A stretch of DNA of 29,822 nucleotides from NCBI GenBank assembly GCA_004298675.1, contig SCRI01000048.1, positions 1-29,822 on the forward strand. Direction: 5' to 3'. This DNA comes from a bacterium (GTDB taxonomy: Bacteria; Vulcanimicrobiota; Vulcanimicrobiia; Vulcanimicrobiales; SCRA01). Shown one piece after another: positions 4,459-29,593 of the stretch (the stretch's first letter is position 1; every line of letters starts with the position of its first letter). The position numbers and the translations under genes are program-made. The notes under the pieces are model-generated. The model searched no databases. It was not told where the DNA came from and worked only from the letters and a program-made list of their open reading frames with translations.

Positions 4459-5766
4459 ATGTCGAGATCCTTCATCGTACGCATGCGAAATGCGCTTGCG
4501 CTCATCGCGCTCGCGTCGCTTGCCTTCCCGCCGCTGCCCTCCGCGGCCGCGGGACCGCCCATCAAAGTCGGCGCGGTCTTCCCGTTCTCGGGACCGCTTG
4601 CTCTTCTCGGTCAGGATTCATTCGACGGCGCCAACGTCGCCATGGAGATGATCAACGCCAAAGGCGGCGTCGACGGACGTAAATTGGAGTGGGTCAAAGC
4701 CGATTCGCCCAACGCCGAACAGGCGAACTCCCAAGCGGAGCGCCTGATCTCGCAGCAGGGGCTGAAGATCCTGATGGGCTCGTACGCCTCACCGATCGCC
4801 GTGGCGGCATCGCAGGTGGCCGAGCGCCATCACGTCATCTACTGGGAAGAGGGCGCGTGGACGAGCACGCTGTTCGATAATCATCCCAAGTACGTCTTCC
4901 GCGTCAACGTCTACGCGGTGCCCGCGGGCGATGCCGCGGTAGCCTACGCCGCGCAGACGGTGGCGCCGAAGATTGGCAAGACCGCCAAGACGCTGAAGGT
5001 GGCCATCGTCAACGAAGACGGTCCCTTCGGAACCAGCGTGGCCAACGCCGAGATCGCGCAGGCGCAGAAGCTCGGCGTCGATGTAGTGGCCCATCTGCCG
5101 TACAGCGCCAAGACCAACGACATGACGGCGCTGGTCCTCAAGCTCAAGGCCTCCAATCCCGACGTGCTGCTCGCAACGTCGTATATCAACGACGCCACGC
5201 TGCTGGTCAAGACGATGCGCTCGCAGGCGTTCCGGCCCAAAGCCATCATCGGCGCCTCCGCCGGCTTCGGTCTGCTGGCGCTCGGCAAGAACCTCGGTGA
5301 AGACGTCAACGGCATCCTCGAAGCCGACGCGCCGTCGATCATCAACCCCAAGGGCCTACGCCCCGCGGGCGAGGCGCTCTACAAGGAGTTCATCGACAAG
5401 TTCAAGGCCGCGACCGGGCGTGAACCCGACGGCTTCTCGTACATGGGCTTCACCGGCGCGTACTCGCTCTTCCACGACGTGCTGCCCAAGGCCAAGGATC
5501 CCAACAACACCGACGACATCCGCGCAGCGGCCGTGGCCGCCAACGTGCCGGAGGGGAGCTATCCCAACGGTTGGGGCCTGAAGTTCGATGAAACCGGGCA
5601 GAACACGCACATGTTCGCGGCGATGATCCAGTGGCAGAAGGGTGCGCCGGTCATCGTCGGCCCGGCCAACATCGCCATGGCCAAGCCGGAGATGATTCCG
5701 CTGCCGAATTGGGCCTACGTACCGCTGCACCTTGCAGCAAGGCTTGGGACGCTCCTCGGTCTCTAA
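4459..5766 (+). CDS. ABC transporter substrate-binding protein, LivK/amide-binding family (system 1)
   Basis: This 435-residue periplasmic protein is the ligand receptor of the first importer. An N-terminal signal peptide (about 1-31, ending in SAAA) is followed by the typical Peripla_BP_6 start IKVGAVFPFSGPLALLGQ and the family's two-lobe pattern, including NAKGGVDGRK near residue 65. The start ATG is well supported by an AGGAAGGAG ribosome binding site seven bases upstream. It heads an operon with two permeases, two ATPases, two C-N hydrolases and an aminotransferase. The ligand cannot be read from sequence; the fold binds branched-chain amino acids, amides, urea or aromatic acids in different members. 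The downstream hydrolases suggest an N-substituted amino acid or amide. Confidence 0.9.
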   Translation: MSRSFIVRMRNALALIALASLAFPPLPSAAAGPPIKVGAVFPFSGPLALLGQDSFDGANVAMEMINAKGGVDGRKLEWVKADSPNAEQANSQAERLISQQGLKILMGSYASPIAVAASQVAERHHVIYWEEGAWTSTLFDNHPKYVFRVNVYAVPAGDAAVAYAAQTVAPKIGKTAKTLKVAIVNEDGPFGTSVANAEIAQAQKLGVDVVAHLPYSAKTNDMTALVLKLKASNPDVLLATSYINDATLLVKTMRSQAFRPKAIIGASAGFGLLALGKNLGEDVNGILEADAPSIINPKGLRPAGEALYKEFIDKFKAATGREPDGFSYMGFTGAYSLFHDVLPKAKDPNNTDDIRAAAVAANVPEGSYPNGWGLKFDETGQNTHMFAAMIQWQKGAPVIVGPANIAMAKPEMIPLPNWAYVPLHLAARLGTLLGL

Positions 5767-5772
5767 CCGGGC

Positions 5773-6660
5773 GTGACGTTTCAGCTCTTCGTCCAGCTAC
5801 TCGCCGCCGGGGTTCTCCTCGGCGGCGTCTATGCATTGATCTCGATCGGCCTCACGCTGATCTTCGGCGTGATGCGCATCGTCAATTTCGCGCACGGCGA
5901 GTTCCTGATGGTCGGGATGTACCTGAGCTACTATCTGGTCACGGCCGCGCACATGAACCCCTACCTGGCGTTGATCGTGGTGGCGCCGGGGCTCTACCTC
6001 TTCGGGCTGCTGGTGGAGATGACGGTCATCAAGCCCACCGTCGGCCAGTCCGACGTCGTGCAGGTCTTCGCCACCGTCGGGCTCTCCATCGTGCTGCAGG
6101 CGGCGGCACTGATGGCGTTCAGCGCCAACGTGATGGGCCTCAATCTCCCCATCACCAACGCGTTGCTGCACCTGGGCTGGCTGACGATCGGCGTGCCGCA
6201 GGTGCTGGCGTTCGTCGCCGCGATGCTGGTGGCGGCGGCGCTGTTCGCGTTTCTGGGGCGCACGGACGTCGGCCGCGCCATCCGCGCCACCGCGCAGGAC
6301 CGTAGCGCGGCCGCGCTGATGGGCATCGACGTGCCCGCGATCTACCGCTTGACGTTCGCGCTGGGCACCGCGATGACGGGCCTGGCGGGGGCGCTATTGA
6401 TGCCTATCTACTCGGTGAGCCCGGACGTGGGCACACAATTCGTGCTGGTGGCCTTTGTGGTGGTGGTGCTCGGCGGCATGGGTTCGGTGAGTGGGGCGCT
6501 GGTGGGCGGGCTGCTGATCGGCATCGTCGAGACGTTCTCCGGTTTCGTGATCGATCCGCAGTGGAAGGCGGCCATCTACTTCATCATCTTCCTGATCGTG
6601 CTGGTCGTGCGCCCGGCGGGGCTGTTCGGCATCCGTGGCAGCGAGGAGACCGCCTCCTGA
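5773..6660 (+). CDS. Liv-type ABC transporter permease, LivH family (system 1)
   Basis: This 295-residue polytopic inner-membrane protein forms half of the translocation pore of importer 1. It shows the family's N-terminal helix and loop GVYALISIGLTLIFGVMRIV followed by NFAHGEFLMVG, and the conserved region LGGMGSVSGALVGGLLIG near residues 235-252. The start is GTG six bases after the stop of the binding-protein gene; there is no strong ribosome binding site, so translation is probably coupled. It ends in TGATG, its stop codon sharing one base with the next start. Length is normal for LivH. Confidence 0.9.
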   Translation: MTFQLFVQLLAAGVLLGGVYALISIGLTLIFGVMRIVNFAHGEFLMVGMYLSYYLVTAAHMNPYLALIVVAPGLYLFGLLVEMTVIKPTVGQSDVVQVFATVGLSIVLQAAALMAFSANVMGLNLPITNALLHLGWLTIGVPQVLAFVAAMLVAAALFAFLGRTDVGRAIRATAQDRSAAALMGIDVPAIYRLTFALGTAMTGLAGALLMPIYSVSPDVGTQFVLVAFVVVVLGGMGSVSGALVGGLLIGIVETFSGFVIDPQWKAAIYFIIFLIVLVVRPAGLFGIRGSEETAS

Positions 6661-7655
6661 TGCGCGCCGTCAAATATCTGCTGCTCGTGCTGGCGATCGT
6701 GGCGGCAGCGGTGGGCCCGCTCGTCACCAGCAACAGCTTCGTGCGCGATCTGTGGGTGCTGGTGGCGATGTGGGGCGCCGTTGCCACCGCCTGGAACTTG
6801 ATCGGCGGTTACGCCGGCGGCCTCTCTTTGGGGCATGCGGCGTTCTTCGGCATTGGCGCGTACACCAGCAGCCTGTTCTACCTGGACCTGCACCTCTCGC
6901 CGTGGCTGGGGGCGCTAGCCGGCGGCGTGGTGGCGATGCTCTCGGCGCTGGTGATCGGTTTCATCACCATTCGCCTGCGCGGGCCGTTCTTCGCGCTGGC
7001 CACGCTGGCGTTTGCCGCCATCCTCGGCATCGCGGCCACGAATCTCACCGCGCTGACGCACGGTGCGGAAGGCATGACGATTCCGTTCGCGCCGGGACTC
7101 GGCCACGCCATCTTCGCATCGAAACTCGACTACTACTACGTGGCGCTCGCGCTACTGCTAGCCTACGTCGCGCTGACGTGGTGGATCTCGGTCTCGCGCT
7201 TTGGCTACTACCTGGTGGCGATCCGCGAGAACGAGGACGCCGCGCAGGCGCTGGGCATCGACGCCGTGCGCGTCAAGCTCGCGGCCACGTTGCTCTCCGC
7301 CTTCATGACCGCGCTGGTAGGCAGCTTCTACGCGCAGTACCGGCTCTTCTTCGAACCCTCGATCTTCGCTACCGATATCTCCGTGCAGATCGCGCTCTTC
7401 GCCATCATCGGCGGCATGGGCACGGTGTGGGGCCCGCTCTTGGGCGCGGCAATCCTGGTGCCGGTGACGGGCGAGCTGCAGAGCTGGCTGGGATCGTCGC
7501 TGCCCGGCATCGACGCCTTCGTCTACGGCGCGATCCTGGTGCTGGCGATTCTCTTCGTCCCCAACGGATTCGTCTCGCTGCTGCGCCCGCTGTTCGCCGC
7601 CAAGCATCCGCCTGCAGCCACGCAGCAGGCCGCCGAAGCTGAGGCCAAGACATGA
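6660..7655 (+). CDS. Liv-type ABC transporter permease, LivM family (system 1)
   Basis: This is the second inner-membrane permease of importer 1, 331 residues. Family hallmarks are WNLIGGYAGGLSLGHAAFFG near residues 41-60, a region AIRENEDAAQALGIDAVRVK, and FAIIGGMGTVWGPLLGA towards the C-terminus, ending in the usual LFVPNGFVSLLRPLF. The frame is open 33 codons further upstream, but ATG 6660 overlaps the stop of the LivH gene by one base and begins the hydrophobic segment, so it is the likely start. Its 3' end overlaps the LivG gene by four bases (ATGA), indicating tight translational coupling. Confidence 0.9.
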   Translation: MRAVKYLLLVLAIVAAAVGPLVTSNSFVRDLWVLVAMWGAVATAWNLIGGYAGGLSLGHAAFFGIGAYTSSLFYLDLHLSPWLGALAGGVVAMLSALVIGFITIRLRGPFFALATLAFAAILGIAATNLTALTHGAEGMTIPFAPGLGHAIFASKLDYYYVALALLLAYVALTWWISVSRFGYYLVAIRENEDAAQALGIDAVRVKLAATLLSAFMTALVGSFYAQYRLFFEPSIFATDISVQIALFAIIGGMGTVWGPLLGAAILVPVTGELQSWLGSSLPGIDAFVYGAILVLAILFVPNGFVSLLRPLFAAKHPPAATQQAAEAEAKT

Positions 7656-8383
7656 GCGCGCTCTTGCAACTGCGCAACGTCGAGAAACGTTTCGGCGGCT
7701 TGCTCGCGGTCAAGGACTTCAACCTCGACGTCGAGCCCGGCGAGATCGTCGGCTTGATCGGACCCAACGGCGCCGGAAAGACCACGCTCTTCTCCTGCAT
7801 CGCCGGCTACCATCGCATCACCAAGGGCAGCATCGTGCTGGACGGGCACGAGATCGGCAATCGCCCCGCGTTCGAAGTCTGCCGTGCCGGCGTGGCGCGC
7901 ACGTTCCAAGTGGTCAAGCCGTTCGCGCGCATGACCGTGTTGCAGAGCGCGATGGTGGGCGCCTTCCTGCACCATCGCGATGCCGCCTCCGCGCGCCGGG
8001 TGGCGCTGGAAGTGTTGGGGCGCCTGCACATGGAGCATCTGGCGCACGTGGAGGCGCGCAGCCTGACACTGGTGCTCAAGAAGCGCTTGGAAGTGGCGCG
8101 GGCGCTCGCCACGCAGCCGCGCCTGCTGCTGCTGGACGAGGTGATGGCGGGTCTCTCACCGGGCGAGGTACCGGAGCTGCTCGACGTCATTCGCTCCATC
8201 AACGCCGGCGGCGTGACCGTGCTCTTCGTGGAGCACATCATGGCGGCGGTGATGACGATTGCGCAGCGCGTGGTGGTGCTGCATGGCGGCGAGTTGCTGG
8301 CCGACGGCACGCCCGCCGAAGTGTCACGAGATCCGCGCGTCGTTGCTGCATATCTCGGTGAGGAGTACGCCGCCGGTGCTTGA
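7652..8383 (+). CDS. Liv-type ABC transporter ATPase, LivG family (system 1), variant signature
   Basis: This 243-residue cytoplasmic ATPase powers importer 1. It has Walker A GPNGAGKTT (37-45), a Q-loop at Gln86 and Walker B LLLLDEV (158-164). The ABC signature is unusual: where LSGGQ or LSYGQ is expected the sequence reads LTLVLKKRLE (138-147), and Walker B continues DEVMAGL rather than DEPxxGL. Linked DEV/LT-type variants are known to me from part of the LivG family, so this is probably a functional subgroup and not decay; the other ATPases in the window keep a canonical LSxGE. The start ATG overlaps the LivM stop by four bases. Confidence 0.9.
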   Translation: MSALLQLRNVEKRFGGLLAVKDFNLDVEPGEIVGLIGPNGAGKTTLFSCIAGYHRITKGSIVLDGHEIGNRPAFEVCRAGVARTFQVVKPFARMTVLQSAMVGAFLHHRDAASARRVALEVLGRLHMEHLAHVEARSLTLVLKKRLEVARALATQPRLLLLDEVMAGLSPGEVPELLDVIRSINAGGVTVLFVEHIMAAVMTIAQRVVVLHGGELLADGTPAEVSRDPRVVAAYLGEEYAAGA

Positions 8384-9080
8384 AGTGCGAGGGCTTGCCG
8401 CCGGCTACGGCGAGAACGCGGTGCTCTTCGACGTGAGCTTCGATGTGCCGGAGGGATCGCTGACGGTGATCGTGGGCGCGAACGCCGCCGGCAAGACCAC
8501 GACCTGCCGCGCCATCTCCGGCGAGATCGAGACGCGCGGCGGAACGATTCGCTTCGGCGGCGAGCAGATCGAACGCGAGCCCAGCAACCGGCGCGTCGAG
8601 CGCGGATTAGTGCAGATCCCCGAAGGCCGCCGCCTCTTTCCGTTCATGACCGTCGAGGAGAATCTGCTGCTGGGTTCCTATGCCCACCGCGCGCGCGCGG
8701 CGCGGCAGGAGGCACTGGACGAAGTCTTCACGCTGCTGCCGCGCGTGGCGGAACGCCGCCGCCAACTGGCGGGGTCGCTCTCCGGAGGCGAGCAATCGAT
8801 GGTGGCGATCGGCCGCGGGCTGATGGCGCGTCCGCGCCTGCTGGTGATGGACGAGCCGACGCTGGGCCTGGCTCCGATCTTCGTGGAGCGCACGTTCGAG
8901 ATCGTCGCGGAGATCCGCAAGCACGGCGTGACCGTGCTGCTGGTGGAGCAAAACGTCAAACGTGCGCTCTCGCTCTGCGACCGCGCTTACGTGCTGGAGC
9001 ACGGGCAGGTGGTGATGCAGGGCGCGGGCGAGCAACTGTTGGGAGACGAGGGATTGCGGCGTGCCTATCTCGGTATGTGA
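8376..9080 (+). CDS. Liv-type ABC transporter ATPase, LivF family (system 1)
   Basis: This 234-residue ATPase is the partner of the preceding LivG. Walker A is GANAAGKTT (34-42), the signature is LSGGE (135-139) and Walker B LLVMDEP (155-161). The start is placed at GTG 8376, ten bases after AGGAG at 8361-8365 and overlapping the LivG stop by eight bases; the open frame upstream lies inside LivG and is not expected to be used. It ends in RRAYLGM, the usual LivF tail, and its last 20 bases overlap the start of the M20 hydrolase gene, so importer and hydrolase are translated as one coupled unit. Confidence 0.9.
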   Translation: MLEVRGLAAGYGENAVLFDVSFDVPEGSLTVIVGANAAGKTTTCRAISGEIETRGGTIRFGGEQIEREPSNRRVERGLVQIPEGRRLFPFMTVEENLLLGSYAHRARAARQEALDEVFTLLPRVAERRRQLAGSLSGGEQSMVAIGRGLMARPRLLVMDEPTLGLAPIFVERTFEIVAEIRKHGVTVLLVEQNVKRALSLCDRAYVLEHGQVVMQGAGEQLLGDEGLRRAYLGM

Positions 9081-12815: not shown

Positions 12816-13547
12816 GTGCAACTTCCTTTCGGCACCCCCGATAAGCAGCTGGGCGATCGCGGCAGACTTTCCGCGGGCGATTCCACCGACATCGTCGTTC
12901 TTTCTGATTCTCCGGTCTATGTTTCGGCGCTCGAGGAGATCATCAGGTACACCTCTACGCTGCGCGTCCGCGCGCATACAACCGCGCTCGACGAAGCGCT
13001 GCGGACGCTCGAAGCACAGGCCAACACCACGGTGCTCGTGGCGACGTTCCTCGCGTCGTACCGATGTCTCGTCTCACAAGCGACGGCAACGATCCGTACA
13101 CTGCGTGGCCGCTTCCCAAGGCTCCCAATTCTAGCGATCGTTCCTTATCTGACGCTTGCGGACACTCAGGCATTCCTGCACGCCGGAGCCTCCGGGCTCT
13201 GTTTCCCAAGCATCGAATCGCTCCCAATGCTTGAAGGAATCAAGTCGGTTGCCAGCGGCCGCGAGTGGCTCGGGCCGGAGTTGGAGCAACTCCTGGGACT
13301 CCGCGGGCGGAGTAGGCGCAAGCGTGTCAAGCTCACGCTGCGGCAGGTCGAGGTTCTCGACATGATTTACAACGGTCTGGACAACCAGACTATTGCAGTG
13401 CGGCTGTGTTGTACAAGCTCCAACGTGAAGGCGCATCTTCACGCGATCTACCGCAAGCTGGGCGTTACGAGCCGGGCTCAGGCAGCGGCCATCGCCGCAC
13501 GCTGGCGCTCCGCCTCAGACGCAAACACTAGCCATTCGGCTGATTGA
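12816..13547 (+). CDS. NarL/LuxR-type regulator with degenerate receiver domain
   Basis: This 243-residue protein has a receiver-like N-terminal part starting at DIVVLSDSPVYVSALE (25-40) and a C-terminal LuxR-type helix-turn-helix (about 172-228) with LTLRQVEVLDMI and NVKAHLHAIYRKLGVTSRAQA. By alignment with the second regulator at 14087, the residue at the phosphoacceptor position is Phe78, so phosphorylation-dependent control is unlikely. The GTG start follows AAGGG at 12805-12809 with a six-base gap. No histidine kinase is adjacent. It could respond to a ligand, a partner protein or act constitutively. Its targets may be the neighbouring catabolic operons, but nothing shows this directly. 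Confidence 0.75.
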   Translation: MQLPFGTPDKQLGDRGRLSAGDSTDIVVLSDSPVYVSALEEIIRYTSTLRVRAHTTALDEALRTLEAQANTTVLVATFLASYRCLVSQATATIRTLRGRFPRLPILAIVPYLTLADTQAFLHAGASGLCFPSIESLPMLEGIKSVASGREWLGPELEQLLGLRGRSRRKRVKLTLRQVEVLDMIYNGLDNQTIAVRLCCTSSNVKAHLHAIYRKLGVTSRAQAAAIAARWRSASDANTSHSAD

Positions 13548-13640
13548 ACTTGCCGGCCATCTCAACTAAACTAGCACGTGGTGAGCGCCCCCATCGCTAC
13601 GCCGTAGATCATCAGTGAACCATGTCGGGGTGTGTAATTC

Positions 13641-14069
13641 GTGGCAGCTGTTTGGCTTAGTTCCCTTACCGCGCATGTGCGCGAGCAAATGGGCTACGCA
13701 AGCCGGCTCTCAGCGCGGCTCGAAACCGGAGCCTCCTCACCGCAGGCCGCTTTTACCGGAATCGTCGACTGCATGGCCCGCTCAGTGACGCACTTGGCGA
13801 ACGCTATCGACGCCATTACCGTAGAAGAACAGAATACCGCGCTGCTCCCGGCAGGCAAGATAGGCGAGCCGTGCTGTCCAGCATGCCACCGGCCACTGGC
13901 TCTCGCCACGAAGCGCGTGAGCGCCGTGGGAACGAGCTACGATATCGATGCCGCGTACTGCAGACTCTGCGGCAATACGATCTCAGTTTTCTGGCATACA
14001 TCGGTTCTCGTCCGCTTCGCGCAGTACGTCGTCGCCCAACTCATCGGCAAAGGATCGCGCGCTTCCTGA
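13641..14069 (+). CDS. Uncharacterised four-cysteine (zinc-ribbon-like) protein
   Basis: I do not recognise this 142-residue protein. Its N-terminal 70 residues are probably helical, without signal peptide or membrane helix. The C-terminal half has a CPAC pair (Cys79, Cys82; Cys78 precedes) and a CRLC pair (Cys107, Cys110) 24 residues apart, a spacing suited to a zinc ribbon. It lies between two related LuxR-type regulators, 93 bases after the first, and its end runs into the leader of the second. The GTG start has only a weak ribosome binding site. A role as partner or modulator of the regulators is a guess from position. Confidence 0.6.
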   Translation: MAAVWLSSLTAHVREQMGYASRLSARLETGASSPQAAFTGIVDCMARSVTHLANAIDAITVEEQNTALLPAGKIGEPCCPACHRPLALATKRVSAVGTSYDIDAAYCRLCGNTISVFWHTSVLVRFAQYVVAQLIGKGSRAS

Positions 14070-14086
14070 AGGCGGCAAACGCAACC

Positions 14087-14767
14087 GTGGTCGACATCGT
14101 GGTGTATTCGGACTCACCGCTCGTCTGCGTGGGACTGGAACACGCGCTCCACCCATATGGTACGTTCCGGTTCTTGGGCTGCTCTGGAAACTGCAGAGCC
14201 AATAGCTTGCAGGTGTGCGCCGATCTCGCGCGTGCCACGCACCCGGTACTGCTGGCCGCCGATCTCAACGGTTCGCGCCTCTACGACGGCGATTTCTGCG
14301 CGGGGCTCAACCTGCTGCGCACGGCAAATCCCGCCGCACCCGTGCTGTTGATCGCCGTCGGCCTTCGGGCCGCCGAGGTACTCAAATCGTTCGGCGATGG
14401 GATTCGCGGCGTCTGTGGCGCTGGCGTTGCTCCAGCCGACCTCGCTGACGGTATTCGCGCGATTATGACGGGAAGGCACTGGCTCGATCCAACGCTCGTG
14501 CACGCTCTATGCGGCTCGGACGGCGACTGCGCCGACGACGAGCCGAAGAGTGCGCTGGCTGCGACGTTGACTCCGCGCCAACGGCAGGTTCTCTCGCTAC
14601 TTGGGGCGGGGCTACGCAACAGCGAGATCGCGCAACATCTCGGATGTTCGGCCGCAACGGTGAAGGCGCATATCGCCGAGATATTCCGCAGACTCGACGT
14701 CACGAATCGAACACAAGCGATTCACCGCTTCCTCGAGAACGTGCCGGCGCAGTCTGCAAGGACGTAA
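14087..14767 (+). CDS. NarL/LuxR-type response regulator
   Basis: This 226-residue regulator has a receiver-like domain that begins VDIVVYSDSPLVCVGLEHA, closely resembling the first regulator, and keeps an aspartate at the likely phosphoacceptor position (Asp59 in LLAADLNGS). The conserved receiver lysine region reads GVCGAGVAPADL, so the usual lysine is not apparent. The LuxR helix-turn-helix spans about 161-215 (LTPRQRQVLSLLGAGL, TVKAHIAEIFRRLDV). The frame is open upstream to 13871, inside the preceding gene, but homology with the first regulator begins only here and GAAGGCGG lies 11 bases before GTG 14087. It follows the four-cysteine gene by 17 bases and is probably cotranscribed with it. 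Confidence 0.72.
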   Translation: MVDIVVYSDSPLVCVGLEHALHPYGTFRFLGCSGNCRANSLQVCADLARATHPVLLAADLNGSRLYDGDFCAGLNLLRTANPAAPVLLIAVGLRAAEVLKSFGDGIRGVCGAGVAPADLADGIRAIMTGRHWLDPTLVHALCGSDGDCADDEPKSALAATLTPRQRQVLSLLGAGLRNSEIAQHLGCSAATVKAHIAEIFRRLDVTNRTQAIHRFLENVPAQSART

Positions 14768-14769
14768 CG

Positions 14770-14964
14770 ATGATCGATCATGCCGTAGCCCCGGCCCCGC
14801 GTGCCTGGATGCTGGTACAAATCCCTGACGCCGCGAACGTGTCGATATGCGATTTCCTTGGGTCGCCGGAGATCGAGTTCGAGTTGGGCGACTTTCGATT
14901 CGCGCTAGCCCTGGGAAAGGAGACTCTAGCGAAGCTCGCGGTTACTCTTGCGAACTGTTCCTAA
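14770..14964 (+). CDS. Small uncharacterised protein (64 aa)
   Basis: This short frame begins two bases after the stop of the second regulator and has a good ribosome binding site, AAGGA at 14758-14762, seven bases before the ATG. It encodes 64 residues, mildly acidic, without a membrane helix or cysteine motif (a single Cys near residue 27 and one at the end). I do not recognise it. The coupling to the regulator and the well-placed Shine-Dalgarno favour a real gene. It could be a small partner of the regulator. Confidence 0.55.
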   Translation: MIDHAVAPAPRAWMLVQIPDAANVSICDFLGSPEIEFELGDFRFALALGKETLAKLAVTLANCS

Positions 14965-15037: not shown

Positions 15038-15078
15038 GAGGGCGACCCTCCTGCCGGCTACAGAACCCGGAAGCCGGC
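15038..15078. other. Two adjacent hairpins between convergent genes
   Basis: GAGGG-CGA-CCCTC at 15038-15050 and GCCGGCT/AGCCGGC arms at 15053-15059 and 15072-15078 lie where the regulator island and the minus-strand toxin gene converge. No T-run follows on either strand, so neither is a classical intrinsic terminator. The rest of 14965-15057 shows nothing. Confidence 0.3.
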
Positions 15079-15453
15079 AAGACGCTTCGCGGCGCGCCGG
15101 TCAAAGGTCGCGGTCTCCTCACATCCGGCGGCTTCGTTCGTTATGCTGAGGAGTGCATCGGCGAAGTCAGCGCCCTCGCGGTAGGCACTCAGTGACAGCG
15201 CTACCTCGGAGGTATCCTCCACGGTGAGCTCCTGTGTGCGAAGAAGTCCATCGATTGCCGCCGCTATCTGCTGCCGCGTGTAACCGTAGGTGCTTTCTAG
15301 CACCCATACGAGCTCGACGATGACGATGCGGTTGACGAAACCGGGTGATGCGGCGCTGCAGTTGGAGGCGATAAACGCTCGCGCCCGCTGCTGCTGCGCC
15401 GGATCATCACCCGTGAGTAACCGGACCAGGACGTTAGTATCAAGACCTTTCAC
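15058..15453 (-). CDS. vapC: VapC-type PIN-domain toxin (module 1)
   Basis: This 131-residue PIN-domain protein is a probable RNA endonuclease toxin. The acidic metal-binding set is visible: Asp5 in GLDTNVLVR, Glu47 in IVELVWVL, Asp96 and Asp99 in GADFADALL, and Asp118 in TFDRR. Its start overlaps the stop of the AbrB-like antitoxin gene by four bases (ATGA on the minus strand), the normal arrangement for vapBC. Family members cleave tRNA or rRNA; the target here is unknown. The protein has full length and no visible inactivating change. Confidence 0.88.
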   Translation of the reverse strand: MKGLDTNVLVRLLTGDDPAQQQRARAFIASNCSAASPGFVNRIVIVELVWVLESTYGYTRQQIAAAIDGLLRTQELTVEDTSEVALSLSAYREGADFADALLSITNEAAGCEETATFDRRAAKRLAGFRVL

Positions 15454-15689
15454 GTGGAACGCGACGCCGCTCTACGACGAATCACGCGATCCATCTCGTC
15501 CAAAGAATGCCGCTTCTTGGCGCGCGGCAGGATCGACGTAAGGTCATCCGTATGCAAGGAGGCGGGAACCAGCACGATGCGCCCCTCCTGAACAAACACG
15601 TTCAGCTTGTCGCCGGGCTTCAGGTTCAAGCGCTCGCGGACGTCCTTCGGCAGCGTCATCTGGCCCTTAGAAGTTAGCGTGGAGGTCAT
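15450..15689 (-). CDS. vapB: AbrB/MazE-type antitoxin (module 1)
   Basis: This 79-residue protein has an AbrB/SpoVT swapped-hairpin DNA-binding domain (residues 1-42: TSKGQMTLPKDVRERL, then LKPGDKLNVFV) and a C-terminal tail of about 35 residues that would wrap the PIN toxin. In this family the antitoxin neutralises the toxin and represses its own promoter. The start has AAGGA four to five bases upstream. A promoter and palindrome directly upstream agree with autoregulation. Confidence 0.88.
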   Translation of the reverse strand: MTSTLTSKGQMTLPKDVRERLNLKPGDKLNVFVQEGRIVLVPASLHTDDLTSILPRAKKRHSLDEMDRVIRRRAASRST

Positions 15690-15807: not shown

Positions 15808-16203
15808 CTAGATCAATGCAACCAGTGGGAGATCGGTCCGCGCAAAATCATTGCCGACAAAAAGGAGTGGTTTACCGGCAACTCTCGCGGTGGCATAGCT
15901 CAAACAATCGCCGAAATTCAGTCCGGCCCGATGCTTGCCTCGGCCGAAGCGCTCGTACGCGGCGGCGGCCTCTACCCAATGTGTATCTTCGAACGGTATC
16001 ACGGAGATCCCAAACTCGTGCACAAAACGATGGACCATACTCAAGCGCTCGAAGCCTAGCCGGTTACCGATTACGATTCCGGTTTCCGCCAGCGTAGGAG
16101 CACCGATGCCAATCCAGTCAGCACGCTCGAGGGCTGCCAACAACTTCGGCCATATCTTCTCCTGAAATATGAGCGCAACGACGGCAGAAGTATCGAGGAT
16201 CAT
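15808..16203 (-). CDS. vapC: VapC-type PIN-domain toxin (module 2)
   Basis: This 131-residue PIN protein is of a different subgroup from the one downstream. Asp4 (MILDTSAVVALIF), Glu40 (APTLAETGIV), Asp99 (LNFGDCLSYATA) and Asp119 (VGNDFARTDL) form the acidic site. The LNFGDCxSYA and GNDFxxTD motifs are those of VapC toxins paired with Rv0623-like antitoxins. Its start overlaps the antitoxin stop by four bases. The two toxins share only the catalytic frame, so the tandem modules did not arise by recent duplication. Confidence 0.9.
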   Translation of the reverse strand: MILDTSAVVALIFQEKIWPKLLAALERADWIGIGAPTLAETGIVIGNRLGFERLSMVHRFVHEFGISVIPFEDTHWVEAAAAYERFGRGKHRAGLNFGDCLSYATARVAGKPLLFVGNDFARTDLPLVALI

Positions 16204-16469
16204 ACGCCGTCCGGGCCGAGGCCGAGGATAGCGTCTTCCTCCTTACGTGTGAGATGTTTGCCGCGCAGCCTGTCGGGTATGAGAGGCCAGACCTCGCGTT
16301 CGAGAAAAGCGCGACGCTGGCGCGCACGGGTCGCCTCAACCGGAACGGCGAGCCGCGCTTTGCGCTCGAGCAAGGCTTTGCGAACGGCTTCCGTCTTACT
16401 CTCACCGGCAAGTTTAGCGACTTCCTCGGCGAGACGCTCGACTTCGGCATTCTTGAGATTCAGCGCCAT
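16200..16469 (-). CDS. vapB: VapB antitoxin, Rv0623/PSK-like family (module 2)
   Basis: This 89-residue antitoxin begins MALNLKNAEVERLAEEVAKL and has SKTEAVRKALLER (about 24-36), the pattern of the Rv0623-like VapB family, with a C-terminal toxin-binding tail. It neutralises the neighbouring PIN toxin and probably represses its own promoter. The ATG lies inside a long palindrome, and no Shine-Dalgarno sequence precedes it, which agrees with a leaderless or nearly leaderless transcript from the promoter at 16479-16507. Confidence 0.88.
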   Translation of the reverse strand: MALNLKNAEVERLAEEVAKLAGESKTEAVRKALLERKARLAVPVEATRARQRRAFLEREVWPLIPDRLRGKHLTRKEEDAILGLGPDGV

Positions 16470-18601: not shown

Positions 18602-19072
18602 TCACACGATACGCAGCGACTTCGAAGCGAGATCGTACAACTTGAAGAGGTCGCCCGCCACGTCGCGCGCGGTCTCCGGAGCATCGGCTAAACGCTCGCT
18701 GCTGACGTACTGGCTCTCCCCCGCAGCCGGCGAATAGTACGCCTCCAGCCCCTGGGCACGGCAGAACGTCTTCAGGCTCTCGAAGGCGTCGTAGGCGGTG
18801 CGCGCGCTCGCCAGGCAATGGATGCCCAAACGCACGCGCAGGCTCTCCGGATTCACCACCGCGCCCACGTGCAGCTCCCAGAACGGGAACGAACCCAGCG
18901 GCACGGCAACCCAATAGAAGTGCGCTCCTTGCCGCCGCAACTGCAGCACCTCCGGCCCGGACCCCTTCTCCAACTCGGGCCCGTAGTAGATCTCCACCTT
19001 CTCGGCAAAGAGCGGATTGGCCGCGCGTCTAATCGACGCGCACACGCGCAGAATATCGTGACGCTTATTCAC
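18602..19072 (-). CDS. Uncharacterised protein at the end of liv operon 2 (156 aa)
   Basis: I do not recognise this protein. It is soluble, without signal peptide or membrane helix. Notable segments are EIYYGPELEKGSGPE, HFYWVAVPLGSFPFWELHVGAVV and GIHCLASARTAYDAFESL. The GTG start overlaps the stop of the preceding livF gene by four bases (GTGA), which makes it an integral part of the operon and supports translation. Aromatic-rich beta-strand-like stretches could form a small ligand-binding domain, but no function is claimed. Confidence 0.65.
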   Translation of the reverse strand: MNKRHDILRVCASIRRAANPLFAEKVEIYYGPELEKGSGPEVLQLRRQGAHFYWVAVPLGSFPFWELHVGAVVNPESLRVRLGIHCLASARTAYDAFESLKTFCRAQGLEAYYSPAAGESQYVSSERLADAPETARDVAGDLFKLYDLASKSLRIV

Positions 19073-19776
19073 CCTTGTACTCCCAGATAGCGTTGTCTCA
19101 CGACGTCCGAGCCCAACAGCGCAGCGCCGGTGTCCTCGATAGCGATGTGACCGCTCTCCATGACGTACGCGCGGTCACAGATACAGAGCGCCTTGGTGGC
19201 ATTCTGTTCCACCAGCAGCACCGAGATGCCGCTTTCACGGATCCGCGAGATGCGATCGAAGATCGCGCGCACGTTATCCACCGAAAGCGCCGCGGACGGC
19301 TCGTCCATCATCAGCAGATCGAAGGGCCGGTTGATCAGCGCGCGCGCGATTGCCAGCATCTGCCGCTCGCCGCCGGAGAGCAGGCCGGCGCCGGTGCGCA
19401 TGCGCTCGCCCAGACGCGGGAAGAGCCCCAGCACTTCCTGCAGCGCCGCCGGATAGTCGTGGCGCAGGTAGCACACCTGCAGCGTCTCAGATACCGTGAG
19501 CGTTGGGAAAACATTCCCCACTTGTGGCACGTAGGCAAGGCCCGACGCCAGCGTCTTCTCGGGATCGATGCCCGTGATATCGCGATCGTTCAAGGTCACG
19601 CTGCCGCTGCGCGGACGCAGCAGACCGGCAATCGTGTTCAGGAGCGTCGACTTGCCGGCACCGTTGGGGCCGATCAAACCCACGATCTCGCCGCGCTCGA
19701 CGCGCAGGCTCACGTCTTTGACGATGTGCTGGCCGCCATAGCCCGATTCGAGAGAGGATACGGTAAAAAGGCTCAT
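19069..19776 (-). CDS. Liv-type ABC transporter ATPase, LivF family (system 2)
   Basis: This 235-residue ATPase has Walker A GPNGAGKST (36-44), signature LSGGE (133-137) and Walker B LLMMDEP (154-160), and ends VRQRYLGVQG. After Walker B it reads SAALSVD where LivF proteins usually have a SLGLAP-like sequence, a mild departure. It follows the LivG gene by nine bases and drives importer 2 together with it. Confidence 0.9.
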   Translation of the reverse strand: MSLFTVSSLESGYGGQHIVKDVSLRVERGEIVGLIGPNGAGKSTLLNTIAGLLRPRSGSVTLNDRDITGIDPEKTLASGLAYVPQVGNVFPTLTVSETLQVCYLRHDYPAALQEVLGLFPRLGERMRTGAGLLSGGERQMLAIARALINRPFDLLMMDEPSAALSVDNVRAIFDRISRIRESGISVLLVEQNATKALCICDRAYVMESGHIAIEDTGAALLGSDVVRQRYLGVQG

Positions 19777-19785
19777 CTCCCGGCG

Positions 19786-20553
19786 CTACGCCCTCCCCAG
19801 GTATGCAGCATGCACGTTCTCGTTGGACTGCACCTCGCCGGGGCGGCCGCTGGCAAGCAGCTCGCCGTCGACGAGCACGTAGACCCAGTCGGCCACCCGC
19901 ATCACGGCCTCCAAATTGTGCTCCACCAGGAGCAGCGTCTTCCCGCGCTCGCGGATGCTCACGAGATGCTCCAGAATCTGCTCGCGCACGTCGAAGGGCA
20001 CGCCGGCAAGCGGCTCGTCCAACATCAGCAGCTTGGGATCGAGCATGAGCGCACGCGCCAGCTCCAACAACTTCTTCTCACCCGCGGAGAGCGTCTCGGC
20101 ATCGGCATCGCGGCTGGCGGAGAGCCCGAGAAACTGAAGGATGCCGTCCGCTCGTTCGGTGTTGGCGCGCTCCTGCGCGCGCGTCTTGCGCTTGGCCAAC
20201 AGTCCCAACGGAAAACGCTCGCCGATCTGGTCGCTACCTGCAACCAGCAGATTTTCAAGGACGCTCAAGCCGCCAAACTCGTGTGGAATCTGGAACGTCT
20301 TGACGATGCCGCAGCGCGCGCGTGCGTAGGCCGGCAGGCGTGTGATGTCCGTACCATCGTAGCATACGGTCCCGCTATCGGCCTGCACGAAGCCTGCGAT
20401 CACGTCGAAGAGCGTGGTTTTGCCGGCGCCGTTGGGACCGATCAGCGCGGTAATAGTCCCCGGCTTCAGGGTTATCGAGACCGACTTCAGGACGCGGCTG
20501 CCAAAGTACGCTTTCGCGACGTCTCGCGCCTCCAGCAAGAACTCGCCGCTCAC
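19786..20553 (-). CDS. Liv-type ABC transporter ATPase, LivG family (system 2)
   Basis: This 255-residue ATPase has Walker A GPNGAGKTT (39-47), signature LSAGE (155-159), Walker B LLMLDEP (175-181) and the LivG-type tail NVHAAYLGRA. The frame stays open far upstream inside the LivM gene, but GTG 20553 overlaps the LivM stop by four bases (GTGA) and directly precedes the conserved start SGEFLLEARDVAKAY, so the long fusion frame is not the gene. It pairs with the LivF ATPase of importer 2. Confidence 0.9.
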   Translation of the reverse strand: MSGEFLLEARDVAKAYFGSRVLKSVSITLKPGTITALIGPNGAGKTTLFDVIAGFVQADSGTVCYDGTDITRLPAYARARCGIVKTFQIPHEFGGLSVLENLLVAGSDQIGERFPLGLLAKRKTRAQERANTERADGILQFLGLSASRDADAETLSAGEKKLLELARALMLDPKLLMLDEPLAGVPFDVREQILEHLVSIRERGKTLLLVEHNLEAVMRVADWVYVLVDGELLASGRPGEVQSNENVHAAYLGRA

Positions 20554-21461
20554 GACGCACGCTCCGGGCGCGCGGCACGCTTGCGCTTGGCCCTGCCCAT
20601 GATGCCGTCGGGACGGAAGACGATGAGCAAAACCAGCGCCAGCCCGATGATCATAAAGCGCAGGGCCGACTGCTGGTTGGCGGAGAGGACGTGCACGTAA
20701 TCTTGCAGCACGATGGAACCCTGTAGGAACGCGATCAAGACGAAGGCCCCGATCACCGGTCCGAGCAGACTCCCGACGCCGCCTAAAATGAGCGCGATGA
20801 ACGTGTTGAAGGTGACGTCCGGGGAGAACTGCTCCGGCGAGATGTACTGCACCCAATGCGCGTAGAGCGCGCCCGCCAAACCGGCAACGGCCGACCCGAC
20901 GACGAGCACCAGCACCTTGTAGGACACGGTGTTCTTGCCCAACGCCTGCGCGGCCGCATCGTTGGCTTGAATGGCTCGCAGGAGACGCCCCAACGGAGAG
21001 TGCCCGATCTGCCAGATCAGCGCGGTGGTGAGCGCGGTCAGCGCGGCGATGATCACCAGCGTGACGGGGGCGGAAAGCTGCGGACCCAACATCGCAAAGG
21101 GCCGATGGATCCCGGTGATGCCGATCGCGCCGTGCGTGAGATTGCGCTGATTCAAGACGAACAGCAGCACGAGCTCGGAGAAGCCCAACGTCACCACCGC
21201 GAAGTAGTCGCCACCGAGGCGGATGGTGAGCAGGCCCAACGGGTAGCTGGCCAAGGCTGCCAGCGCGGTGCCGGCCGCCCAGCCGGCAAGCATCGGCCAA
21301 TGGTGACCCACGGTGAGAATGGCGCTGGTGTAGGCACCGATCGCCACGAACGCGACGTAACCGAAGTTGATGATGCCGGTAAAGCCCATCTGCAGGTTCA
21401 AGCCCAGCGCCAGCATCGTGTAGATCAAGCCGAAGGCGATAACCGTGTAGACGTAGGTCAT
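20550..21461 (-). CDS. Liv-type ABC transporter permease, LivM family (system 2)
   Basis: This 303-residue polytopic membrane protein is a pore subunit of importer 2. It has the LivM segments LGLNLQMGFTGIINFGYVAF near the N-terminus, AIQANDAAAQALGKNTVSYK in the cytoplasmic loop, and LILGGVGSLLGPVIGA near the C-terminus, ending LLIVFRPDGIMGR. The start ATG overlaps the LivH stop by four bases (ATGA); the longer open frame upstream lies within LivH and is rejected. Confidence 0.9.
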   Translation of the reverse strand: MTYVYTVIAFGLIYTMLALGLNLQMGFTGIINFGYVAFVAIGAYTSAILTVGHHWPMLAGWAAGTALAALASYPLGLLTIRLGGDYFAVVTLGFSELVLLFVLNQRNLTHGAIGITGIHRPFAMLGPQLSAPVTLVIIAALTALTTALIWQIGHSPLGRLLRAIQANDAAAQALGKNTVSYKVLVLVVGSAVAGLAGALYAHWVQYISPEQFSPDVTFNTFIALILGGVGSLLGPVIGAFVLIAFLQGSIVLQDYVHVLSANQQSALRFMIIGLALVLLIVFRPDGIMGRAKRKRAARPERAS

Positions 21462-22327
21462 GCGCGCACCGCCTCGCCGAACAAGCCACGCGGTTTCACG
21501 AGCAAGACCAGCATGATCAGGAAGAAGGCGATGCCCTCTTCGTAACTCGTGGGAATCCACAGAATGCCCAACTCGCTGACCAGCCCCATGAGAAAGGCAC
21601 CGATGGCGGCACCGAAGGGATTGGAGATGCCGCCGAAGATCGCGGCGGCGAACGCGAGCAGCAGCACGTCCCAGCCCATCGTCGGAGCAATCACGTCGCG
21701 CGCGCCCAGGAGAATGCCGGAGGCTCCAGCCAGCACCGAGACGAGCACCCACATCGCGAGGTGAACCCTAGCAGGGCTGATGGCGCTCAAGCGGGCCAGC
21801 GACGGATTGTCCGAGACGGCGCGCATGCGCCGCCCCAACTGCGTGCCGCGGAACATCCACCACACGCCCAACAACGCGGCGAACGCTGCCGCCAGAAGGA
21901 TGACGTCGAGCGGCCGCACGACCACCGGGCCCAGATGCATGCCGCGCTCGGCCGGCAGCGGAAAGGTCTGGAAGTCGCTGCCGAACGAGAAGATGATGCC
22001 GTAGCGCAAGAAGAGTTCCACGCCGATCGACGCGATGAACAAGTTGAGCATCGGACGGCCGGCGAGATGCCGGTAGACACCGAGGTGCATTCCCACGCCG
22101 GCCAGCGCCGAAATCACGAGGCCGAACAGCACCGCCAGCGGCAGCGGCAGGTTCCAGGAACCCGCCGCCACCCACGCGGCGTACGCCGCGATCGTCATGA
22201 GCGAGCCGTGCGCGAGGTGCGGAAAACCGGCGATGCGCCACACCAGTGCCAAACCCATCGCCGGCAGCGCCATGATCGCCCCCAGGACGATGCCGTCGAC
22301 GGCGTGCTGGAGGAGCGTCGCGATCAT
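21458..22327 (-). CDS. Liv-type ABC transporter permease, LivH family (system 2)
   Basis: This 289-residue permease has the LivH N-terminus GIVLGAIMALPAMGLALVWR followed by HLAHGSLMTIAAY, and FAAAIFGGISNPFGAAIGAFL near 225-245. The usual GLTLIFGVxxxxNFAHGE is varied here (ALVWRIAGFPHLAHGS), as in divergent members. It follows the binding-protein gene by 22 bases and overlaps LivM by four. Confidence 0.88.
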   Translation of the reverse strand: MIATLLQHAVDGIVLGAIMALPAMGLALVWRIAGFPHLAHGSLMTIAAYAAWVAAGSWNLPLPLAVLFGLVISALAGVGMHLGVYRHLAGRPMLNLFIASIGVELFLRYGIIFSFGSDFQTFPLPAERGMHLGPVVVRPLDVILLAAAFAALLGVWWMFRGTQLGRRMRAVSDNPSLARLSAISPARVHLAMWVLVSVLAGASGILLGARDVIAPTMGWDVLLLAFAAAIFGGISNPFGAAIGAFLMGLVSELGILWIPTSYEEGIAFFLIMLVLLVKPRGLFGEAVRA

Positions 22328-22349
22328 GGCCGCACTCCACGCTGCATCG

Positions 22350-23621
22350 TTAGGTCAAGTCCCGGGCGGGGTAGAGCGCCAACTGCTCGCGCGCGGTGCC
22401 GTTGAGGCGCCACACCGCGAAGTTGCTCACGATGTCGTGATGGTCGTCGAAGTCGCACGGACCGGAAGCGCCCTGGTAGTTGATCTTCTTTCCTTCGCGC
22501 AGCAGCTTGGCGCCGGTGGCGAAGTCGTAGACCTCGATGCCCGGAGGGCAGGCAATGTCGCGCATCTTGGCGGCAACCTCCGCGCCCGCCGTGGACTTCG
22601 CCGCTTCCATGGCTAGCGCAAGCAGATTGGCCTGATCGTGCGCCTGCGCCGGCCAGAAGTTGTCGGAGAGACTGGAGCCGGTGGCCGACTGAAAGACGTC
22701 CGCAAACGCCTTATAGCCCGGCTGCGTCACCGGCGGGATGCCGTCAACGGCGAAGAAGCCGTTGACCACCCCGGCACCCACGTTCTTCACCAAGGCATCG
22801 TTGAAGGCGAAGCCGGGGCCCATGACGTGCGTCTTGACGTCCGCCGCGTACCACTCTTTGGTGATGATCGAGGCGTCGGGCGTGTAGCCGATGACGATGA
22901 GCAGATCGGGCGTGCCCTGCAGCGCCTTCTGTACCTCGCCGGCGTACGACGCCGCCTTGGGATTGTAGACCACCACGTTGTCGACACCCGGCATGCCCAG
23001 GCGCCGCCACTCCGCGGCGAAGGCGTCGCGCATCGTCAACGCGTACGGGTTGTTGAGCGCCAGGATCGAAACTTTCCGGTAGCCCTGCTTCTTCGCGAAG
23101 CGCGCCATGACCAGCGCGTACGGGCGATCCGTCGGCTGCGTGCGGAAAACCAGGCGGCGATACTTCGGCGCGGTCACGTCGCCGGCACCGGAGGTATTCA
23201 TCTCCAGCACGCCGGCTTGCGTGGTGATGGGAAGTACGGCCAGCGTGACGGCGCTGGACCACGTTCCGATGATAGACTCCACGTGATTGAGGCTGATGAG
23301 CTTCTGCGCCACGGTCACCGCGGCGTCCGGACTCGTCTGGCTATCCTCGCTGACGATTCGCAGCCGCCGCCCCATGGGCCCGCCGGCTTTGTTGATCGCG
23401 TCGACGGTGATCTCGATGGCCTTGAGCATCTTCGGTCCGTACGTCGCCCCGCCGCCCGTCAACGGAACCATGACGCCCACCGGAATATCCGGACCGCCGC
23501 TGGCCAGCGCGGGCAGTCTGATGGAAAGCCCGCCGGTTAGACCCGTGAGGACTCCCGCAGTAGAGGCCCCCGCCCCGAGCATAAAATGCTTGCGCGTGAC
23601 ACCGTGACGCATGTCCTTCAT
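22350..23621 (-). CDS. ABC transporter substrate-binding protein, LivK/amide-binding family (system 2)
   Basis: This 423-residue periplasmic protein is the receptor of importer 2. It opens with a basic region and hydrophobic signal (RKHFMLGAGASTAGVLTGL, ending ALASGG), followed by the Peripla_BP_6 pattern IPVGVMVPLTGGGATYG, INKAGGPMGRRLRI and EDSQTSPDAAV. The signal has Arg-Lys rather than twin arginines, so Tat export is uncertain. ATG 23621 is chosen because GAGGAAAGGG lies immediately upstream; ATG 23612 is an alternative, and the longer open frame lacks a signal. It follows the 443-residue gene by 29 bases. The ligand is unknown. Confidence 0.88.
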   Translation of the reverse strand: MKDMRHGVTRKHFMLGAGASTAGVLTGLTGGLSIRLPALASGGPDIPVGVMVPLTGGGATYGPKMLKAIEITVDAINKAGGPMGRRLRIVSEDSQTSPDAAVTVAQKLISLNHVESIIGTWSSAVTLAVLPITTQAGVLEMNTSGAGDVTAPKYRRLVFRTQPTDRPYALVMARFAKKQGYRKVSILALNNPYALTMRDAFAAEWRRLGMPGVDNVVVYNPKAASYAGEVQKALQGTPDLLIVIGYTPDASIITKEWYAADVKTHVMGPGFAFNDALVKNVGAGVVNGFFAVDGIPPVTQPGYKAFADVFQSATGSSLSDNFWPAQAHDQANLLALAMEAAKSTAGAEVAAKMRDIACPPGIEVYDFATGAKLLREGKKINYQGASGPCDFDDHHDIVSNFAVWRLNGTAREQLALYPARDLT

Positions 23622-23650
23622 CCCTTTCCTCTTCTCGAGCAAAACGCCGG

Positions 23651-24982
23651 CTAGATGGTATAGCCCAGTCGCTCCATGCGGCGCCGATAGAGCTCCGGCT
23701 TTGCGGGCTCCCAAGGCAACGGCTCAACGGGATCGAGCGGTGCGAAGCGTGGATGCATGGGTCTTCCGCTCAGTTCCGGCAACCATGATTCCTGGAAGTC
23801 AATCACCCGGTCGAAGGTCGCTTCGATCACCCGTGCAACGCGCTCGAAGAAGTGCTGTGTCTCCGCCGCGCCGAGCGCGATGATCTCCGGCGGCAGATGG
23901 CCGTCCGCGGCGTGGAGCTGGAAGGCGCGCGCGAGCGACTGCAACAGTTCGAGCAGGTCCGGCTTCCCACCGAGCAGTCGCTGCTGAAACGCAACCTGAC
24001 AGAGTGCGAAGCGCACCGCGCGGTCGTGGAGGTCGAGGTCACTCACCTCCGGCGGGGCCACCGCACCGCTCACTTCGCCGTTGAGGCCGGCGTCGCGCGC
24101 GGCGTTCGCCAGAAACGGCGTGACGCTGTGGATGGCCGCAACCCAGCCGTCGAAGCGCGTGGGCACCATCCGGTCAGCCAGGCGCACCGCAAGCCAACGA
24201 TCCGCGAGCCCGCAATCGCGCGCCTCCTCCACCCACGACTTCGCAACCGTGGGCACGCCCTGCTGCACCACCGACGTCACGCGCGGGAACGGCGGAATGA
24301 CGTTTCCGTCGCCTTCGTCGGAGAGGGACTGTCCCGCGAGAATGCGGGCAACCTCCCCGGGATTCTGACCCGGCGAGAGACCGAGCCCCAGCGGGAGATG
24401 TTCGAACGGCACCTGCGGCAGCGGACGCGTCACCTCGTAGGAGTAGCCGTGCGAGGACGCGCCCGCGGTGGCATCGGGATGGACGGCGAAGCCGCGCGAA
24501 CGCTCGATCGCCTCCCAACGCCACATCAGCGCGATCTCCGCTTGGTCGAAGAACTCCGTGACCAGGCGTTGGACCTCCGCGCGCTCGCCGCTCGTGAAAG
24601 CGGGCGCGTCGTCGATCGCATCGCGGTAGGCGTCGCGCATGAACTTGAGATACAGCACGTACTGCCAGAGCCGGGTGTCGATCTTCCAGTGGAAATCCGC
24701 TTGCCAACGGCCGTAGCGCGTGGCGGCGTTGCCACCCGTCCACGTCGTCACCTCCTCGAGGTCGAGTTGCGGCGCCTTGCCGTCCTCGACGAAGCCGAAG
24801 ATGCTCTTGGTCGTGACGTTGGCGGCGTGGATCCAGCCGTCGATCTTCGTGGTGAAGACGCCGTCGGCGATGGGGATGCGCAGCAGTTCGTCGACCGAGC
24901 CGGCTGCGGAGGCGTGCTTGCACCAGTTGCGGCCGATCTCGTCGTCCAACGCGGCAAGCTTGTCTAAGATATGGCGATTCAT
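23651..24982 (-). CDS. Uncharacterised protein heading liv operon 2 (443 aa)
   Basis: I do not recognise this 443-residue protein. It has no signal peptide or membrane helix and is probably cytoplasmic. Visible features are a tryptophan-rich stretch (WTGGNAATRYGRWQADFHWK, then TRLWQYVLYLKFMRDAY) around residues 80-118, a Gly/Pro-rich loop (LPLGLGLSPGQNPGEVARIL) near 200-220, and a mostly helical C-terminal third. No nucleotide-binding or metal-binding motif stands out. It is the first gene of the operon that encodes importer 2 and, with the 156-residue protein at the other end, brackets it. A catabolic or ligand-processing role is guessed from position only. The ATG is the first start after the divergent intergenic region. 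Confidence 0.7.
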   Translation of the reverse strand: MNRHILDKLAALDDEIGRNWCKHASAAGSVDELLRIPIADGVFTTKIDGWIHAANVTTKSIFGFVEDGKAPQLDLEEVTTWTGGNAATRYGRWQADFHWKIDTRLWQYVLYLKFMRDAYRDAIDDAPAFTSGERAEVQRLVTEFFDQAEIALMWRWEAIERSRGFAVHPDATAGASSHGYSYEVTRPLPQVPFEHLPLGLGLSPGQNPGEVARILAGQSLSDEGDGNVIPPFPRVTSVVQQGVPTVAKSWVEEARDCGLADRWLAVRLADRMVPTRFDGWVAAIHSVTPFLANAARDAGLNGEVSGAVAPPEVSDLDLHDRAVRFALCQVAFQQRLLGGKPDLLELLQSLARAFQLHAADGHLPPEIIALGAAETQHFFERVARVIEATFDRVIDFQESWLPELSGRPMHPRFAPLDPVEPLPWEPAKPELYRRRMERLGYTI

Positions 24983-25039
24983 CGGCGGTCCATGAAACTC
25001 CCGAGAAGTCGTTCGAGAAATGTCCGATTATCGGTTTAC

Positions 25040-25069
25040 TTGACTGAAGTGCGGTTGCCGGATTATATC
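25040..25069 (+). promoter_or_regulatory. Sigma70-type promoter of proline dehydrogenase
   Basis: TTGACT (25040-25045) is followed after 18 bases by TATATC (25064-25069), or after 17 bases by the overlapping TTATAT. Transcription would start near 25076, about 70 bases before the ATG. TTGACT is also the -35 of toxin-antitoxin module 1. Confidence 0.6.
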
Positions 25070-25086
25070 ATTGCGGTAACGGCTTG

Positions 25087-25101
25087 CGCAAGTCACTTGC
25101 G
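25087..25101. promoter_or_regulatory. Palindrome downstream of the proline dehydrogenase promoter
   Basis: CGCAAGTCACTTGCG is a perfect 15-base palindrome about 11 bases past the predicted transcription start, a position suited to a repressor. A weaker related inverted repeat, ACTTGACTGAAGT, lies at 25038-25050 over the -35 box, about 50 bases (five helix turns) away centre to centre. Confidence 0.45.
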
Positions 25102-25147
25102 TCATCACGTCTCGCTCATCGCTTTTCAGCCACGGGAGTCTACTGCC

Positions 25148-28879: not shown

Positions 28880-28894
28880 GGAATCCTCCCTTTA

Positions 28895-29593
28895 TCAAAC
28901 CTCAACGCCGAGGTAGCGCGATTGTAAGTCCTCGCGTGCCCGCAGCTCCTGACAGGAGCCCGAGAAGACGAGGGCACCTTGATCGATGATGTAGGCGTAA
29001 TCCGCAAGCTTGAACGGTATCTCGAGATCCTGCTCCACCAGCAGGATGCTCAAACCACGGCTCTTCATCTCGGCGATCGAGTCGACGACGGCGTCCACGA
29101 TCACCGGAGCCAAACCCTGCGAGGGCTCGTCTAGCAACAGCAGGCGCGGCCCCGTCACCAATGCCCGCGCGATCGCCAGCATCTGCTGCTCGCCGCCGCT
29201 CAAGAAACGCCCGCGGCGATCGCGCAAGCGCGCCAACGGCGTAAACATCTCGTAGATGCGCTCGCTGCTCCAGAGCGTGTCGCGCCGCTGAGCGATCAGC
29301 AGGTGCTCGCGCACCGTGAGGTGCGAAAAGATGCGCCGCTCCTCCGGCACGTAGGCAATGCCCAGCGCGTTGATCTTGAACGGAGGGAGATCCGTGAGGT
29401 CCTGCTCACCAAAGGTGATGCGTCCACGGCGCGGCGGCACCAGGCCCATGATGCTCTTGAGCGTCGTGCTCTTGCCGGCGCCGTTGCGCCCCAAGAGCGC
29501 CACCACTTTGCCCTCGGGCACCACCAGCGAGAGGTCCTTCAGAATGTAGCTCTCGCTGTAATAGGTATGGATGCCCTCGATCTGCAGCTTCAT
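28895..29593 (-). CDS. Liv-type ABC transporter ATPase, LivF family (system 3)
   Basis: This 232-residue ATPase has Walker A GRNGAGKST (35-43), signature LSGGE (131-135) and Walker B LLLLDEP (151-157) with the canonical SQGLAP continuation, and ends LQSRYLGVEV. Its ATG overlaps the stop of the upstream LivG gene by four bases. It energises importer 3 with that partner; the permeases must lie beyond the window. Confidence 0.92.
   Translation of the reverse strand: MKLQIEGIHTYYSESYILKDLSLVVPEGKVVALLGRNGAGKSTTLKSIMGLVPPRRGRITFGEQDLTDLPPFKINALGIAYVPEERRIFSHLTVREHLLIAQRRDTLWSSERIYEMFTPLARLRDRRGRFLSGGEQQMLAIARALVTGPRLLLLDEPSQGLAPVIVDAVVDSIAEMKSRGLSILLVEQDLEIPFKLADYAYIIDQGALVFSGSCQELRAREDLQSRYLGVEV

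Follow-up and report, generated by a model that had tools for sequence, protein, structure and literature searches.

Two related LuxR-type regulators, here called R1 and R2, flank a gene for a cysteine-containing protein (the Cys protein), and a 64-aa open reading frame follows the second regulator. A sequence-only reading of this locus took the four genes for an unusual control unit, in which a phosphorylatable regulator and its non-phosphorylatable paralogue share a metal-binding partner. Do the genes form such a unit, and would phosphorylation control it? We analysed the window, a stretch of 29,822 nt that lies entirely within one contig of a 3.03 Mb genome (98.5% complete). The four ORFs are found where that reading had placed them, all on the + strand, and two VapBC modules adjoin them on the opposite strand:

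12816-13547, + strand: R1, NarL/FixJ-type regulator, 243 aa, GTG start
13641-14069, + strand: Cys protein, CxxC-x24-CxxC, zinc-ribbon-like, 142 aa, GTG start
14087-14767, + strand: R2, NarL/FixJ-type regulator, 226 aa, GTG start
14770-14964, + strand: 64-aa ORF, no family, ATG start with AAGGA upstream
15058-15453, - strand: VapC-like PIN toxin (Pfam PIN, 4e-10)
15450-15689, - strand: MazE/AbrB-type antitoxin, partner of the preceding PIN toxin (Pfam MazE_antitoxin, 1.7e-14)
15808-16203, - strand: second VapC-like PIN toxin (Pfam PIN, 9e-13)
16200-16469, - strand: Rv0623-like antitoxin, partner of the second PIN toxin (Pfam PSK_trans_fac, 6e-15)

For each of the four ORFs the annotated frame is stop-free and has the top codon score among the six frames, and GC by codon position (1/2/3) is of the coding type. 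The gaps between the genes measure 93 bp (R1 to the Cys gene), 17 bp (Cys gene to R2), and 2 bp (R2 stop to the 64-aa ORF). From this layout we infer that the four genes form one co-transcribed operon, although the 93-bp gap ahead of the Cys gene might contain a separate promoter.

Both regulators end in a GerE/LuxR HTH that scores above the Pfam cut-off (PF00196; E 6e-16 for residues 173-227 of R1 and 4.3e-19 for residues 160-213 of R2). Their closest curated or solved relatives are NarL/FixJ response regulators, e.g. NarL, VraR, ChrA, and ErdR, and the genome holds nine GerE HTH matches, R1 and R2 included. A role of the regulators in defence was rejected because the PADLOC CARF matches span the HTH only. 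The receiver of R2, which carries Asp59, is assigned by homology, as R2 aligns with full-length NarL from residue 8. R1 has a pseudo-receiver at about residues 24-148 that remains below threshold in Pfam (Response_reg, E 0.13). The AF2 model of R1, computed from a two-sequence alignment (mean pLDDT 70.6, pTM 0.56), displays alternating β-α receiver elements and HTH helices. Residues 23-159 of this model match a LuxR-family receiver in the PDB with a Z score of 17.0 and an rmsd of 1.7 Å over 120 residues. Thus, the AF2 model and the structural match identify R1 as a receiver by predicted fold, despite its Pfam score. The sequence-only reading had held that a standard receiver in R1 would speak against its proposal, and a standard receiver is largely what the model predicts.

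To what extent the two receivers retain an active site was assessed by aligning R1 and R2 with NarL and with 43 homologues found in the phylum. R1 has S-D at the acidic pair and lacks the Asp, the Thr/Ser, and the Lys, keeping one of the five residues. R2 likewise has S-D at the acidic pair, retains Asp59, and carries Ala in place of both the Thr/Ser and the Lys, keeping two of five. Phe78 of R1 sits opposite Asp59 of R2 in the pairwise alignment, and the aspartate is retained in R2 alone, as had been noticed from the sequence. Residues 67-98 of R1, the β3-α3 stretch, contain no Asp or Glu, so the loss of the aspartate does not depend on the alignment. Neither protein combines the DD pair, Asp, Thr/Ser, and Lys that mark a canonical phosphorylated receiver. 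Pseudo-receivers, defined as lacking at least one of the five active-site residues, make up several percent of all receivers (PMC12632262); by this published definition R1 and R2, judged by their residues, are both degenerate (pseudo-)receivers. The view of R2 as phosphorylatable fares poorly with three of five positions altered (Thr/Ser, Lys, and one acidic residue), and the supposed contrast between the paralogues comes down to one residue of five.

Degenerate receivers are not peculiar to the R1/R2 locus. They also occur in four homologues from other families of the order, which have Asn for Asp and no Lys. These four Asp-less NarL-type regulators form a clade with LK at the Thr site and CLATT or CMATT at the Lys site, and each is solitary, with no Cys protein beside it. 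Three of the four lie near apparent PQQ-dependent alcohol dehydrogenase, substrate-binding, and cytochrome c genes (names assigned by reading, not by profile); proteins of this clade may regulate genes of methanol/alcohol oxidation without a kinase.

The kinship of R1 and R2 is borne out by BLASTP (E 7e-27, 33% identity over 214 aa). They are reciprocal best matches in their own genome (E 3.5e-21, next best 5.8e-14) and mutual best matches across the 61 genomes searched. A joint R1+R2 profile run against 149 genomes of the phylum gives the pair 459 and 437 bits and everything else at most 85 bits. The DIVVxSDSP motif near the N terminus is present in both proteins, as first described, and among the homologues aligned only R1 and R2 have SDSP; this restriction, together with the BLASTP score, argues that the shared motif exceeds chance. 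In a maximum-likelihood tree R1 and R2 are sisters (support 96/94), each on a very long branch. The sister grouping joins two very long branches, however, and weakens once either regulator is removed: without R2, R1 falls in the Asp-less clade (96/90), and without R1 the placement of R2 is not firm. An old local (tandem) duplication followed by rapid divergence is the simplest reading of these comparisons. Against plasmids, R1 matched nothing but generic response regulators, with identities of about 30%, and it had no relatives in viral contigs. Tandem LuxR pairs found in two relatives were rejected as kin of the locus, their receivers being ordinary and Asp-bearing.

The Cys protein had been described as a four-cysteine protein. 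It contains six cysteines in total, of which four (79, 82, 107, and 110) are conserved in relatives and make up a CxxC-x24-CxxC pattern, here CPAC-x24-CRLCG, followed by a conserved W118-H119. The relatives comprise a pair of shorter paralogues from the same genome (about 96-98 aa) and, from each of two congeners, a single orthologue. The CxxC pairs are invariant across them, and an N-terminal extension of about 70 aa is present in the Cys protein and missing from all of these relatives. A low-confidence model (pLDDT 52), of insufficient quality for fold searching, comprises helices 2-28 and 35-62, a β hairpin between the CxxC motifs, and a C-terminal helix; a zinc ribbon is plausible. As the sequence-only reading had suspected, neither the Cys protein nor the 64-aa protein matches a curated family. 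The top PDB profile match of the Cys protein is a LIM domain (E 0.009), and Pfam and NCBIfam matches remain below cut-off; the weak matches to a DUF7479/DVU_1557 redox protein, to a LIM domain, and to ribosomal L24 were not taken as homology. The family is confined to its own genus in a profile search of the 149 phylum genomes and likewise, at strong scores, within the order. We found no relatives in plasmids, phages, or viral contigs. The third member of the family (96 aa, same genome) follows an apparent XRE-HTH + EAL-domain gene near rpoC. The 64-aa ORF has no family match and no convincing homologue in 60 relatives or in viral contigs; its weak matches (E 0.07-0.08) lie in unrelated or non-coding frames and were rejected.

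Does the set of four genes exist elsewhere? Searches of the 149 phylum genomes with the R1+R2 and Cys profiles found the arrangement nowhere else, and no trace of the set turned up in three congeners or in the viral, phage, and plasmid collections. A query of the GTDB contig collection with the Cys family returned only the stand-alone congener genes and one weak short match. Beside the Cys-protein relatives in the own genome and the two congeners there is no R1, R2, 64-aa gene, or any LuxR regulator, and the regulator homologues in relatives occur in turn without a Cys protein. Homologues thus largely occur singly, an outcome that the sequence-only reading had itself named as evidence against its proposal, and a conserved unit that includes a metal-binding partner is not supported.

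GC3 is 0.68-0.72 in the four ORFs and 0.61-0.78 in the whole block including the VapBC pairs, whereas the genes on either side have 0.81-0.87. A GC3 this low is what recently acquired DNA would show, and with the two VapBC modules it makes acquisition of the block by transfer likely, we infer. In congeners the flanking aminotransferase and amidohydrolase genes are found on different contigs and have other genes around them, which indicates a variable block boundary; with the flanking genes in such different surroundings, no clean empty site is readable in the congeners. At the block edges we saw neither a tRNA nor flanking direct repeats, and no gene resembling an integrase. Relatives of the second VapBC module lie within about 7 kb of a stand-alone Cys paralogue in the own genome and in a congener. 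The rest of the window has the look of an amide or amino-acid catabolism neighbourhood: several ABC transporter sets of the branched-chain amino-acid type and amidohydrolase, amidase, and M20 peptidase genes occupy 4459-9080 and 19069-29593. Two proteins there lack a Pfam match, one of 443 aa (23651-24982, - strand) next to a set of genes for a branched-chain-type ABC transporter and one of 156 aa (18602-19072, - strand) adjoining an ABC-transporter ATPase gene.

The reading that we favour, with a probability of about 0.62, is an operon in which two tandem-derived, orphan, degenerate NarL/FixJ regulators accompany a Cys protein and a 64-aa ORFan, the whole lying in a low-GC3, probably acquired segment. 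The locus looks like a lineage-specific, largely ordinary orphan-regulator set, not a new control circuit. R1 and R2 would most likely bind DNA via the LuxR-type HTH as homodimers and/or as an R1-R2 heterodimer. They would act without phosphorylation by a histidine kinase, their activity being set by protein level or by a protein or ligand partner. Phosphorylation-independent homo- or heterodimers are favoured because BldM/WhiI offers a precedent of degenerate orphan NarL/FixJ regulators (PMC4125116). Against such independence, R2 still has Asp59, so some phosphorylation is conceivable, e.g. from small-molecule donors or through a distant kinase. Any part played by the Cys and 64-aa proteins in regulation is speculative; if involved, the Cys protein might be a metal-binding or redox accessory.

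The alternatives differ in how much of the block they regard as one device. The unit may consist of the two regulators alone, with the Cys protein an unrelated housekeeping protein. Its relatives are stand-alone genes, and one stand-alone form recurs with the same adjacent gene of unknown function in the own genome and in a congener, just as this alternative would have it. Yet the Cys gene lies between R1 and R2, shares their orientation, stands 17 bp from R2, and encodes the N-terminal extension that the relatives lack; we regard the separation as possible but lean against it. A more sweeping proposal would make the whole block a decaying or fast-evolving passenger, in which regulators and small ORFs came with the toxin-antitoxin modules and, under weak constraint, serve no dedicated circuit. 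The very long branches leading to R1 and to R2, the low GC3 beside two VapBC neighbours, and the absence from three congeners all agree with it. Four open and best-scoring frames, HTH scores far above the Pfam cut-off, and intact CxxC pairs do not, and we hold it to be unlikely.

More elaborate circuits find less room. In the phospho-switch implied by the sequence-only reading, a distant kinase would phosphorylate R2, the phosphorylation-blind R1 would modulate R2, and the Cys protein would act on them as a metal sensor. No HATPase_c domain is encoded on the contig, in keeping with the earlier remark that no kinase is nearby; 24 proteins with this histidine-kinase ATPase domain in the rest of the genome could serve. 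An Asp that only R2 has fits the scheme, and RcsB-RcsA and RcsB-BglJ show that such pairs exist (PMC4125116). The scheme asks much, however, of a receiver without Thr/Ser, Lys, and one acidic residue, and of an arrangement conserved nowhere found whose Cys family exists without regulators, and it strikes us as quite improbable. Least credible is a mobile four-gene sensor-regulator cassette, in which a kinase-free R1-R2 heterodimer switch would be set by a zinc- or redox-responsive Cys partner, docking through its helical N-terminal extension, together with the 64-aa protein; for this we would allow only a slim chance.

It is stated to be an open question how pseudo-receivers change state if they are not phosphorylated (PMC12632262); this compact locus, which encodes two paralogous pseudo-receivers next to a candidate Cys partner, could serve as a test case. 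Its present value, with gene position the sole pointer to an action of the Cys protein on R1 and R2, is mainly that of a carefully annotated case of orphan, atypical regulators from a little-studied phylum.

Among known systems the nearest parallel is BldM/WhiI of Streptomyces, an orphan atypical NarL/FixJ pair that forms a heterodimer (PMC4125116). In WhiI the Lys is missing along with one Asp of the pair; BldM keeps the pocket, but its D54A mutant still complements (PMC4125116). Like R1/R2, the two are orphan NarL/FixJ regulators of which one bears the Asp, and they need no kinase; WhiI resembles R2 in the missing Lys and acidic residue. The bldM and whiI genes are reported to be highly conserved in streptomycetes (PMC4125116), whereas R1 and R2 are adjacent, lineage-specific, and set among unrelated small proteins, and their heterodimer is only proposed. 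In the enterobacterial RcsB-RcsA and RcsB-BglJ pairs a receiver-bearing LuxR-type regulator joins an auxiliary LuxR-type partner (PMC4125116); the RcsB receiver is typical and phosphorylated, unlike R1 and R2, which are both degenerate. Aspartate-less and pseudo-receiver regulators (PMC4395418, PMC12632262) share with R1 and R2 a receiver fold devoid of catalytic residues and a DNA-binding output, but R2 retains the Asp and the R1 and R2 genes stand in tandem with the Cys-protein gene between them. The Cys protein itself resembles small four-Cys proteins of the zinc-ribbon/LIM-like kind in its CxxC-x24-CxxC spacing and the predicted hairpin between the Cys pairs, and differs from them in being genus-restricted, with no significant family match.
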